From assembly GCA_020631355.1 (NCBI GenBank), contig JAHDHL010000004.1:124001-188000 (forward strand): DNA of 64,000 bases, written 5' to 3'. Below the pieces are notes generated by a model that saw only the letters and a program-made list of their open reading frames with translations, did no database searches and was not told the DNA's origin. The position numbers and the translations under genes were made by a program. Source of the stretch: Saprospiraceae bacterium. GTDB taxonomy: Bacteria > Bacteroidota > Bacteroidia > Chitinophagales > Saprospiraceae. Every line of letters begins with the position of its first letter. The stretch's first letter is position 1. Positions 1,038 to 5,293 of this stretch are shown one piece after another.

Positions 1038-1964
1038 CTATTCCTTATCGTCGGGCTTATCCTTTCCGAAGCTATTCCTAGGGTGGTAGGTCTGTATGAC
1101 ATCCTTTAGGTATTCCCTATCCAAATGGGTATAAATTTCCGTAGTGGTAATGGATTCGTGGCCCAACATATCCTGTACTGCCTTAAGGTCTGCCCCTCCC
1201 TCGACCAAATGTGTGGCAAAGGAATGTCTGAACGTATGTGGCGAAACATTCTTTTCAATACCTACTTCGGCAGCTATTTCCTTTACGATGTGAAAAACCA
1301 TAATACGGGAAAGTCGGTTGCCTCTCTTATTAAGGAATACGATGTTATCCTCCTTGATTTTACTGTAGCTACGACGCTCATCTAAGTATAGCTTAAGCTG
1401 GTGAATGGCGGATGTTCCTATCGGTACCAGTCGTTGCTTGTCGTTCTTACCAATTACCCGGATGAATCCTATATCGAGAAACAAGTCCGTTATCTTCAGA
1501 CCAATTAATTCACTCACCCGCAAACCACAGGCATACATCACTTCGAACATCGCCCTATTGCGTCTGCCATGCACTGTGGACATATCGAAACCACCCAAAA
1601 AATCATTGACTTCCTCCACAGTCATGACTGCGGGAATTTTCCGGTTCAGCTTAGGGGATTCGATCAATTCCGACGGGTCAGCCTCAATCAGATTCTCAAT
1701 GACCAGATATTTATAATAAGCTTTGATACCTGAAATGATTCTAGCTTGGGTTGCGGCTCCCAATCCTAATTCATTCAAATAAAATACAAAATCCTTGAGG
1801 TGTTGTGTCTTGATTTGCCTAGGTGACAATTCCAATTCACTCAATCTTAGAAAATCCACCAGTTTCCTAACATCCGATGTATACCCCTTAACTGAGTGTT
1901 CAGAAAAGGAACGTTCCAATTTCATGTAGGCTTCGAAACCTTTGATTGTAGAGCGGAAATCCAT
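1038..1964 (-). CDS. xerD: Site-specific tyrosine recombinase XerD
   Basis: 308-residue XerC/XerD-family recombinase that resolves chromosome dimers at dif with a partner recombinase and FtsK. An N-terminal SAM-like core-binding domain spans about residues 5-90 and the catalytic domain about 110-295. The active-site set is complete: R149 in CGLRVSEL, K173 in GKNDKQRLVPI, H243 and R246 in SPHTFRHSFATHL, H269 in MLGHESI and nucleophile Y278 in TEIYTHLD. The ATG at 1964 gives a normal-length family member; an upstream in-frame start at 2021 would add 19 residues unlike the family. XerD is preferred over XerC from length and the TFRHSFATHL block, but the two are hard to separate by eye. Nothing suggests a mobile element at this locus. 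Confidence 0.88.
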   Translation of the reverse strand: MDFRSTIKGFEAYMKLERSFSEHSVKGYTSDVRKLVDFLRLSELELSPRQIKTQHLKDFVFYLNELGLGAATQARIISGIKAYYKYLVIENLIEADPSELIESPKLNRKIPAVMTVEEVNDFLGGFDMSTVHGRRNRAMFEVMYACGLRVSELIGLKITDLFLDIGFIRVIGKNDKQRLVPIGTSAIHQLKLYLDERRSYSKIKEDNIVFLNKRGNRLSRIMVFHIVKEIAAEVGIEKNVSPHTFRHSFATHLVEGGADLKAVQDMLGHESITTTEIYTHLDREYLKDVIQTYHPRNSFGKDKPDDKE

Positions 1965-2064
1965 AATGGCAAGGTAAGACTTTTCAGTATGTAGTCCTAG
2001 CAGGCATATGGCATTGTGCATATTAATCAGTAGTCCATATGGAATTATATTAATTCAAAAAACC

Positions 2065-2323
2065 TTACTGATTATTCTTTTTACCCAAAGAAATCGCTGG
2101 TGCAATATACAAACATAAGAATGCGACTATAATTTGCATCTCTATCATCATTTCCGAAATAACATCCATTGTCAATTCGACAGCATTATTCAATAATTGC
2201 ATTACAAAGAATAATAACACCAAGAATAATCCCACTTTAATAAAACGATTATTTTCTTGATTATTCTTATAAAAAAAATATAAGAACAAGACCTACAATT
2301 CCTACAGAAAGTCTAATGAACAT
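2065..2323 (-). pseudogene. Small two-helix membrane protein, frameshifted in an A8 tract
   Basis: From the ATG at 2323 the minus strand reads MFIRLSVGIVGLVLIFFL and stops at once. After a run of eight T (plus-strand A8, 2271-2278) the reading continues in another frame as KNNQENNRFIKVGLFLVLLF and on to ISLGKKNNQ, ending at 2065. Removing one base of the run joins the two into a single 85-residue protein with two or three hydrophobic helices. The downstream frame alone has a TTG at 2289, so a 74-residue product is possible. It may be a decayed gene, a phase-variable gene, or a sequencing error in a homopolymer. I do not recognise the family. Confidence 0.5.
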
Positions 2324-2736: not shown

Positions 2737-2943
2737 TTACTCCCTAAAACCACAAACATATCTATAGATATTCGCCAACAATAAAAAAATCGTAATGGAC
2801 GGAAGAATAATTAAAAAAAGTAAGGTATTGAACCCTTCATAAGTCATGCCTAGTAGGTTGGAAGCATTGATACAAAAATCCGTACAAAACCAATATATGT
2901 CATGGAGTAGATGATTCATTTTCGTTTGCGGATGAGTCCCCAT
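2737..2943 (-). CDS. Small membrane protein (68 aa), second of a coupled pair
   Basis: 68-residue protein starting ATG 2943 with a hydrophilic N-terminus and one C-terminal membrane helix (LLFLIILPSITIFLLLANIY, about residues 41-60). It overlaps the end of the upstream gene by 28 bases, which implies translational coupling. Residues N-LLGMTYEGFN-LLF-IILP line up with NPFGLGYAEMN-LIYVILFP near the C-terminus of the upstream gene, so both carry the same short motif (N-x-x-G-x-x-Y-x-x-x-N followed by a hydrophobic helix with a proline). From memory, short Bacteroidota proteins with such a G-x-x-Y-x-x-x-N helix are common, but I cannot name a family or function. Confidence 0.6.
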   Translation of the reverse strand: MGTHPQTKMNHLLHDIYWFCTDFCINASNLLGMTYEGFNTLLFLIILPSITIFLLLANIYRYVCGFRE

Positions 2944-3254
2944 GACAACAATGATATAATCAAGGGAAACAGGATAACATAAATGAGAATATTCATCTCA
3001 GCATAGCCCAACCCGAATGGATTATGCTTCAGCAACTGTATATTCTGTTGATATAATTCGTGTAGGAATAATGTCCAGTTAGAGGATTCGCTATCCAATT
3101 GTCTTTTGTGATGCACACATCCCTTGTCATGGCAATAACGGGTACATCGTTGCTCTTGTCTTTCGTGGGACGGGCTTCCGCCCACAGCATTCACCCATAC
3201 CATCAGGACGATGGGTAACAATAAAATCGAAAGGAAAAAGAGTAACCTTTTCAT
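2916..3254 (-). CDS. Exported or membrane protein with a Cys/His cluster (112 aa)
   Basis: Start chosen at ATG 3254 (MKRLLFFLSILLLPIVLMVW), which opens with a signal or anchor helix; an upstream start at 3311 adds 19 unlikely residues. The mature part begins with a Cys/His-rich stretch, CTRYCHDKGCVHH, spaced like a metal- or haem-contacting cluster (C-x3-C-H-x3-C-x-H-H). The C-terminal third has the motif NPFGLGYAEMN followed by a membrane helix (LIYVILFPLIISLLSWGL) and a basic tail RKRK. Likely topology is two helices with the Cys/His loop outside the cytoplasm. The overlap with the 68-residue gene suggests the two act together. Function unknown. Confidence 0.65.
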   Translation of the reverse strand: MKRLLFFLSILLLPIVLMVWVNAVGGSPSHERQEQRCTRYCHDKGCVHHKRQLDSESSNWTLFLHELYQQNIQLLKHNPFGLGYAEMNILIYVILFPLIISLLSWGLIRKRK

Positions 3255-3469
3255 CAAATCATAACGGATTATCCAGTAAAGTATTATGCGATACAAACAT
3301 TCCAAAAACATCCGTATATCCCAAGCACAGAAGCAACTTAATTATTTCTAGGCAGACATTCGGGCAGGATTAAAAGATAATAATAAAGGGTAAAAAAGTT
3401 TCACTAACTTAGAGTTTGCGGGGATACAATGTATCCGATTCCATCATTACAAAACAGAAATCACTTAAC

Positions 3470-5293
3470 ATGGGAGAAATGTCTTTATCCATTCTTGATT
3501 GGGGTATCATCATCGGATTCTTCATTCTGATTGTTGGCATTGGCCTTTCCTATACGAATAAGGCAGGCAAAAGTCTTGAGCACTTCTTCCTAGGGGGCAG
3601 GAATCTCCCTTGGTATATTGCAGGAATATCCATGGTTGCAACCACGTTTGCAGCAGACACTCCATTGGCCGTTACCGAATTGGTTGGACAAAGTGGTATT
3701 TCCGGTAATTGGCTTTGGTGGAGTTTCCTTGCCGGTGGTATGCTCACAACATTCTTCTTTGCCCGACTCTGGCGCAACTCGGGGGTTCTGACCGAAGTCG
3801 AACTCTCCGAACTCCGATATAGCGGTACGGGGGCTAAAATCCTAAGAGGTGGCAAGGCCGTTTACCTTGGCGTATTCATGAATGTAGTCATCATCGCATG
3901 GGTCAATGTGGCACTGATGACCTTGCTGGAAGTTTTCTTCGGGCTCGGAGAGGTACAATGGATGGGTGTCAAGGCCAGTTTGGTGATTACGGCCGCAGCA
4001 ATGTTATGGACTGCCATCTATTCTTCCATGTCGGGATTATTGGGTGTAGCCATTACGGATGTATTACAATTCATCATGGCCATGATCGGTACCATCGTAT
4101 TGGCTGTTCTCGTTGTGAATTCCGAACAAATCGGTGGTATTGATGGTCTAAAAGCACAATTACCTGAGGGAACACTCAACTTTTTTCCATCCCTAGGAGA
4201 AACAGAAAATGTGGGTAAGACCCTAGGACTATCCATCGGGGCTTTCCTATCCTATGCAGCCATACAATGGTGGGCCAGTTGGTACCCCGGAGCAGAACCG
4301 GGAGGTGGCGGATACATTGCCCAACGAATGATGAGTACCCGTTCACCCAAGGATTCTGTCTATGCGACCTTATTTTTCCAAATTGCACACTATTGTCTGA
4401 GACCTTGGCCTTGGATTATTGTAGGACTCTGTTGCCTCGTACTCTATCCGGAATTACAAGGTGACAACATCAAGGAAGGATATGTCATGGCCATGAAGGA
4501 TTTTCTTCCTAGTGGGCTAAAGGGACTTCTACTGATTTCTTTCTTTGCCGCATATATGAGTACCATTTCCACACAACTCAACTGGGGTGCCAGCTATGTG
4601 GTGAATGACATTTATAAGCGTTTTATTTCTCCCGAATCAGATGAAACAGGATTGGTATTGGCGTCCAGGCTTACGACCCTATTGTTAATGATATTGGGAT
4701 TATTCGTCAGTACTTTCGTCAATTCCATTTCAGGAGCCTGGGGATTCATCATGCAAGCCGGTGCAGGTTTGGGATTGGTCCTTATTCTCAGATGGTATTG
4801 GTGGCGAATCAATGCATGGAGTGAACTTGCAGCCATGATTGCACCATTCTTTCCTACGGCCGTATTCTTCATCCTCAGCAGTGATTGGGTAGGAATGGAA
4901 CCATTTCCGTTTGAGGTAACTTTCCCGATTACGGTATTATTCACAACTATCGTTTGGATCATTGTCACTTTCACCACGCCTCCTACGGAAGAAAGTGTAT
5001 TGCAACATTTCTATAATAAGGTAAGACCCGATGGAGCCTGGGCCCATCACCCCGACAACTACAACATGATACTTGGAGCTGTTTCCGAAAATACGCCTCC
5101 GCCTAAGAATAATTTATTGTTTCTTTTCCTTTGTTGGATTTCAGCCATCATCATGACTTATGGCATCTTATTCCTTATCGGAAAAATGATTCTTAAGGAA
5201 TGGAATGAGGTCATGATTCTGACCGTTATCGTGGCAGTCAGTTTCGGTGCACTGCGTTTCTTTATTTCCAAAACCCGGGTCTTTGCCGCCTAA
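3470..5293 (+). CDS. Sodium:solute symporter family (SSS) transporter
   Basis: Polytopic membrane protein of about 608 residues, a typical length for SSS symporters, which couple Na+ import to uptake of sugars, amino acids, nucleosides or similar. It starts MGEMSLSILDWGIIIGFFIL with helix 1, followed by the family block KSLEHFFLGGRNLPWYIAG, then SMVATTFAADTPLAVTELVG in helix 2, whose small and hydroxyl residues sit where Na+ and substrate bind in the family. Many Trp-rich helices follow (IQWWASWYPGAEPGGGGYIA). ATG 3470 is preferred to an upstream TTG at 3416; ATG 3479 is also possible. The substrate cannot be told from sequence. A sulfotransferase gene begins 12 bases after the stop and may be cotranscribed. 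Confidence 0.88.
   Translation: MGEMSLSILDWGIIIGFFILIVGIGLSYTNKAGKSLEHFFLGGRNLPWYIAGISMVATTFAADTPLAVTELVGQSGISGNWLWWSFLAGGMLTTFFFARLWRNSGVLTEVELSELRYSGTGAKILRGGKAVYLGVFMNVVIIAWVNVALMTLLEVFFGLGEVQWMGVKASLVITAAAMLWTAIYSSMSGLLGVAITDVLQFIMAMIGTIVLAVLVVNSEQIGGIDGLKAQLPEGTLNFFPSLGETENVGKTLGLSIGAFLSYAAIQWWASWYPGAEPGGGGYIAQRMMSTRSPKDSVYATLFFQIAHYCLRPWPWIIVGLCCLVLYPELQGDNIKEGYVMAMKDFLPSGLKGLLLISFFAAYMSTISTQLNWGASYVVNDIYKRFISPESDETGLVLASRLTTLLLMILGLFVSTFVNSISGAWGFIMQAGAGLGLVLILRWYWWRINAWSELAAMIAPFFPTAVFFILSSDWVGMEPFPFEVTFPITVLFTTIVWIIVTFTTPPTEESVLQHFYNKVRPDGAWAHHPDNYNMILGAVSENTPPPKNNLLFLFLCWISAIIMTYGILFLIGKMILKEWNEVMILTVIVAVSFGALRFFISKTRVFAA

Follow-up and report, generated by a model that had tools for sequence, protein, structure and literature searches.

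Locus and gene structure

The window, a stretch of 64,000 nucleotides from contig JAHDHL010000004.1 of a Saprospiraceae bacterium, contains two overlapping genes for small membrane proteins on the minus strand, in agreement with the initial annotation. Gene A (2916..3254) encodes a membrane protein of 112 amino acids, which consists of an N-terminal transmembrane helix, a putatively extracytoplasmic loop rich in cysteine and histidine, a C-terminal helix-turn-transmembrane part that resembles the product of gene B, and a basic tail. The methionine of the MKR sequence at 3254 is the start, or is near it, in most of the gene A homologues, and the longer open reading frame from an alternative start at 3311 is absent from them. 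Gene B (2737..2919) encodes a membrane protein of 60 amino acids, with an amphipathic helix followed by one transmembrane helix. The open reading frame of gene B extends from an upstream ATG at 2943 (2737-2943), which would give a 68-amino-acid form and an overlap of 28 nt with gene A. Since the gene B homologues start near the ninth codon of this frame, the most likely start by sequence comparison is Met9 at 2919, with a 4-nt ATGA overlap in which the start of gene B lies on the stop of gene A (2916..2919, minus strand). This is also the commonest junction among the pairs. Neither protein matched a Pfam or NCBIfam family above the curated cut-offs.

The pair is flanked downstream by a tyrosine-recombinase-like gene (1038..2021, minus strand) and upstream by a divergent sodium:solute symporter-like gene (3416..5293, plus strand). 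Both names, including XerD-like for the recombinase, were assigned by eye. The space that separates the pair from the recombinase-like gene contains a hydrophobic open reading frame of 74 amino acids (2065-2289, minus strand). In genome G007, gene B runs into the recombinase-like gene and leaves no space for such a frame.

The Cys/His cluster that had been described for the first product is present in A as CTRYCHDKGCVHH, at residues 37-49 (3108..3146, minus strand). The proposed 17-residue motif N-x-x-G-[LM]-x-Y-x-x-[MF]-N-x-L-[IL]-[YF]-[VL]-I matches both proteins as written, with NPFGLGYAEMNILIYVI at residues 78-94 of A (2973..3023, minus strand) and NLLGMTYEGFNTLLFLI in B (2809..2859, minus strand). 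The first helix of B contains a conserved cysteine within YWFCTDF (2875..2895, minus strand), which aligns with F-D-x-C-V of the phage proteins described below.

Predicted topology and conserved residues

Protein A has hydrophobic stretches at about residues 3-24 and 85-108, with the Cys/His loop between them, and B has a single one at about residues 29-53 of the 60-amino-acid form. In all 36 paired B proteins and in 36 of the 37 phage proteins, positive charge is greater on the C-terminal than on the N-terminal side of B, which suggests that the C-terminus is on the inside. For A, charge does not settle the topology, as the mean net charge of the loop is as positive as that of the ends. Helix 1 of B is amphipathic, with a weaker hydrophobicity (mean KD 0.84 to 0.98) than the transmembrane helix. 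The AlphaFold model of B consists of helices at residues 2-23 and 27-56, with a mean pLDDT of 93. The model of A is poor (pLDDT 58) and was used for the helix pattern only; it displays a similar helix pair at residues 59-76 and 81-111.

Among the 39 A proteins, the conserved positions are an asparagine (39 proteins), the cysteines and histidine of the loop (C 39, C 38, H 37 and C 39) and a second histidine (30). The corresponding numbers for the 36 paired B proteins are C 31, T 34, D 36, Y 36, N 34 and P 34, and a counterpart of the helix-1 cysteine is present in 37 of 37 B-like proteins from phages. The A protein of locus L107 is without the central Cys-His and that of L099 has a tyrosine in place of the histidine, and both loci keep the pair. 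Thus, the Cys/His cluster of A is strongly, although not absolutely, conserved.

A helix-turn-membrane-helix domain in both proteins

The similarity between A and B extends beyond the short motif. Profiles constructed from B proteins alone matched the C-terminus of A at E=2.2e-4 and 2.1e-6 in a search of the genome from which the window was taken, and profile-profile comparisons of the A and B domains gave E=5e-5 and 7e-7. A 45-row profile, composed of B-like rows without any A row, was compared with the whole genome; B was recovered at 9.9e-19 and A at 6.1e-7, with the next match at 0.89. For the copy of the pair on a Hymenobacter plasmid, of which the two proteins were tested, the B profile matched A at 2e-6 and the A profile matched B at 1.5e-5. 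These E-values rule out a chance likeness of two hydrophobic helices as the source of the motif. Judged from these comparisons, gene B is the C-terminal helix-turn-membrane-helix domain of A standing alone, and the pair is a two-gene module made from two versions of one unnamed domain. An alignment of the window B protein with bacterial and phage forms has 45 rows, every one of which shows the same five residues, C, Y, N, F and P; the bacterial pairs with a residue other than cysteine at this position of B are not part of it.

The domain does not correspond to a named family in the databases that were searched. No Pfam or NCBIfam family matched more than 2 of the 45 aligned B-like members, and no PHROGs match was better than 0.007 for 10 members of the B-like alignment A6 and 10 further proteins. 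PADLOC gave no credible match for 10 proteins, the best being partial with E=0.0036. Hence the searches of PHROGs and PADLOC provided no credible sequence match of A or B to known defence or exclusion families. A search of PDB sequences gave one match to A, at E=0.8, and the fold comparison of the B model with PDB and BFVD gave nothing at E<=0.001.

Conservation and linkage of the pair

The A profile matched 39 of 398 genomes of the same family at E<=0.001. Inspection of each of these confirmed a real A gene in 34 genomes, one of them split in two frames, which amounts to a patchy spread in the family. The other five matches are something else, with B-like single genes in three of the five. 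The set of 39 A genes analyzed here consists of those in the 34 same-family genomes, in two viral contigs and in three named genomes, which are a Pontibacter, a Chryseobacterium gleum MAG and a Flavobacteriaceae MAG. The named genomes were supplied by a contig scan that returned at least 588 stretches and at least 5 loci, and in the Pontibacter record A is split by a frameshift.

Gene B is located directly downstream of A for 36 of the 39 A genes, two of which are on phage contigs. In the three exceptions, A adjoins an IS66 transposase gene (L092), a contig end falls inside A (L105), or A and B are both retained on different contigs (G005). The pairing is thus real, whereas the motif also occurs outside pairs. 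G005 represents a natural unlinking of the two genes, with A beside the symporter and B elsewhere, after a gene identified by eye as DprA-like (the two loci are L125:4223-4414 and L111:9672-10046).

In a sample of the class, the B-like profile matched 16 of 345 genomes at E<=1e-4, and reading of the loci resolved these into 8 genomes with pairs, 6 of them additional to the set of 39, and 8 with B-like singles. Together with a copy on a Hymenobacter plasmid, this brings the further pairs beyond the 39 A genes to seven. In a sample of the phylum, only 3 of 296 genomes were matched by the first A profile, including that of the window itself and one weak match; A is therefore rare outside its home family. 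The window pair has the features of the family, with an asparagine after the first transmembrane helix, the C-x3-C-H...C loop and B directly downstream on the same strand; the glutamate that usually follows the conserved asparagine of A is an alanine in the window protein. Two features are specific to the pair, namely protein A and a B of the TDF type.

The distances among the A proteins and among the B proteins of 34 pairs are correlated (r=0.70), a value reached by none of 5000 permutations; the partners thus travel together. The dN and dS values were 0.098/0.52 for A and 0.084/0.76 for B in the comparison of G553 with G613, and 0.107/0.29 and 0.049/0.38, respectively, between the two phage contigs. 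For a B-like single gene the values were 0.019/0.10, and the remaining comparisons were saturated in dS. Both A and B are under purifying selection.

Genomic context and mobility

In the genus of the window, the gene pair of G000 and that of G007 are located between the recombinase-like and the symporter-like genes. In G001 of the same genus (L244), these two genes are separated by 136 bp and the pair is absent. Gene A is located beside the symporter in G005, and five other genomes of the genus have different genes or a contig end at this position. The proteins encoded by neighbouring genes cluster mainly between close relatives, and the few common families each occur in two to four loci. A common neighbour of such genes, for which the initial annotation had proposed a check, was not found, nor was a defence island, around the bacterial pairs among the loci listed. 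By eye, the pairs at these loci are mostly situated amid ordinary chromosomal genes and not in defence islands.

The A proteins separate into type I, to which the window protein belongs (C-x-R-x-C-H), and type II (C-x-W-x-C-H), with a split support of 100/98. Both types are present within one genus in two cases, g16 (type II in G023, type I in G442) and g230 (type II in G394, type I in G483). Selection maintains the pair, which is found at varying genomic positions across several families, and additionally on a plasmid and within one lineage of phages. Taken together, we consider the described anatomy and the existence of a mobile, conserved pair to be highly probable.

The plasmid copy, from Hymenobacter yonginensis (L275:4905-5487), corresponds to two annotated hypothetical proteins with genes that overlap by 8 nt. 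Genes for a relaxase, an HNH endonuclease and a UvrD-helicase-domain protein are located nearby, possibly as parts of a mobile or defence cluster.

Pairs and single B-like genes in viral contigs

Two related viral contigs (L139 and L140), which are relatives of Flavobacterium phage immuto, carry both genes of the pair, with phage genes and a gene for HSP20 in the vicinity. A protein encoded next to the pair in L140 matched four records of Flavobacterium phage immuto, a Microcystis phage and an uncultured phage. Both A and B were absent from the part of immuto that was compared (40.6 kb out of 160 kb) and from a region of the Microcystis phage. A degenerate DNA pattern for A matched 17 stretches of viral contigs, and A was encoded only in L139 and L140; no stretch was matched when the Chryseobacterium A protein was used together with a different pattern.

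Single B-like genes are far more common. A profile of these genes identified 136 loci in viral contigs, of which 80 were kept, and such singles are also found in some bacteria. Unpaired occurrence of the motif had been named as the observation that would speak against the initial interpretation, and it is widespread. The 82 B-like proteins that were fetched form 31 clusters at below 75% identity. The immediate neighbours of the 31 clusters, restricted to proteins under 800 amino acids, comprised 118 proteins, and a tally by best-matched family included, among the families listed, integrase (5), ribonucleotide reductase (4), MazG-like (3) and DNA polymerase (2). Proximity to integrase or ribonucleotide reductase genes places the phage singles in positions that would suit lysogenic or early genes. 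No lysis family was present among the 25 families listed for the 118 neighbours, beyond which there are 98 more.

Searches of the INPHARED phages by tblastn, both with B-like proteins and with the phage A protein, gave no match; the low-complexity filter of BLAST may hide short hydrophobic proteins in either search. A DNA search from one viral locus matched Roseobacter phages around the site, in nine records, and the B-like gene is absent from the two of these regions that were examined.

Possible functions

The B domain represents an unnamed membrane family that is common to many viral contigs and some bacteria, and the pair provides a short, cloneable handle on it. The heteromeric membrane complex suggested in the initial annotation is compatible with the overlapping or abutting genes, the shared domain and the correlated evolution of the partners, and the complex itself is a prediction; as a whole, we regard that interpretation as partly supported.

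As a tentative first choice, A and B may protect the cell envelope against phages in a manner similar to superinfection exclusion. Both proteins would be located in the inner membrane with their basic C-terminal ends on the inside, the first helix of B and its cysteine would lie at the outer face and the Cys/His loop of A on the outer side, and the proteins would pair via their similar domains. With less certainty, the module might prevent the entry of DNA or some step of infection at the membrane. In the phages, the bare B-like domain could act likewise in lysogeny or at an early stage of infection. We favour exclusion because of the mobility, the patchiness, the carriage by phages and the location of the phage singles beside integrases or early metabolic genes. 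Superinfection exclusion is mediated by membrane proteins such as Imm of T4 and gp15 of HK97. Like A and B, these proteins are very small, reside in the inner membrane, are carried by phages, often as early or lysogenic genes, and are mobile and patchy in distribution. In contrast, A and B have no PHROGs match, and they constitute a mostly chromosomal module of two genes, in which a Cys/His loop is present. The lack of a credible PADLOC match, the position, by eye, of most bacterial pairs at the loci listed outside defence islands and the hydrolase neighbours of some bacterial singles argue against exclusion, which also leaves the need of A for a Cys/His loop unexplained. More doubtful still is the full version of the idea, in which Bacteroidota, a plasmid and their phages would exchange a two-gene transmembrane system for phage exclusion, and two copies of the new phage membrane domain would form a complex gated by an extracytoplasmic Cys/His site. 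If phage exclusion is correct, the pair would be a new module in the arms race between hosts and phages.

Close behind exclusion comes a possible role of the B domain as a small holin-like protein that works with peptidoglycan hydrolases, as a pore, pinholin or antiholin. The A and B pair would then be a domesticated form, with A as a regulator that has a redox- or metal-sensing outer loop. Holins and pinholins, such as S of phage 21, are similar to B in being small phage membrane proteins with a weakly hydrophobic first helix and, for some, peptidoglycan hydrolase neighbours. The two helices of B, the first of which is weakly hydrophobic, fit this pattern, as do several bacterial singles. Those of G724 and G979 overlap the end of a gene for an M23/lysostaphin-like peptidase, those of G574 and G370 are next to a GH25 lysozyme and have C92 and M15 peptidases in the vicinity, and that of G145 is the first gene of a run that continues with two coiled-coil genes and one for a GH19 endolysin-like protein. 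A B-like single also follows a weak match to GTA_holin_3TM (PF11351) in L150 (E=0.001, below the cut-off) and, by eye, in L151. However, the peptidase link, which concerns three bacterial single-gene lineages, was noticed post hoc, and the bacterial pairs at the loci listed are, by eye, generally not beside hydrolases. The listed families of the immediate phage neighbours are without a lysis function, the M15 peptidase of L144 and its like, probably an endolysin, is encoded on the opposite strand, and the window pair has no peptidoglycan hydrolase gene beside it. Neither A, B nor the B-like proteins matched a holin family in Pfam, NCBIfam or PHROGs. A holin-like role would define a new lysis family, and either this answer or phage exclusion could allow annotators to name genes that are now called hypothetical.

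It is less likely that A and B form a redox or metal complex of the membrane, in which the C-x3-C-H...C loop of A would bind haem or a metal, or would undergo disulfide exchange with the outer cysteine of B. The near-invariance of the loop residues and the frequent cysteine of B are consistent with such a function, as is the location of the loop between two hydrophobic stretches, outside if the basic ends are inside. On the other hand, charge does not place the loop, the pair is retained in L107 and L099 in spite of their altered clusters, 5 of the 36 paired B proteins are without the cysteine, and genes for electron transfer or metals are not steady neighbours. A toxin-antitoxin-like pair, in which one protein, B (or A), would damage the membrane and be neutralised by the other, is still less probable: the short, overlapping, patchy and mobile genes, also borne on a plasmid, resemble such systems, but both partners are membrane proteins with one domain in common, G005 has them on different contigs, and in viruses the B-like domain is found alone in many contigs, with the partner mostly absent from phages. 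The remaining probability falls to something else.

Additional observations

Helix 1 of the B-like alignment A6 (profile positions 11-28) resembles a segment of ionotropic glutamate receptors, probably by convergence; the match to glutamate receptors in the search of PDB sequences covered 18 residues at E=0.03 and was taken as chance. The overlap of the B-like gene with the end of the M23 peptidase gene is 4 nt in both G979 (L256:1507-1695) and G724 (L257:1510-1698), which belong to one genus. In two B-like proteins (L136:7765-8139 of G145 and L268:1279-1671 of G812), from genomes of different families, the helix-turn-helix unit seemingly occurs twice per chain.
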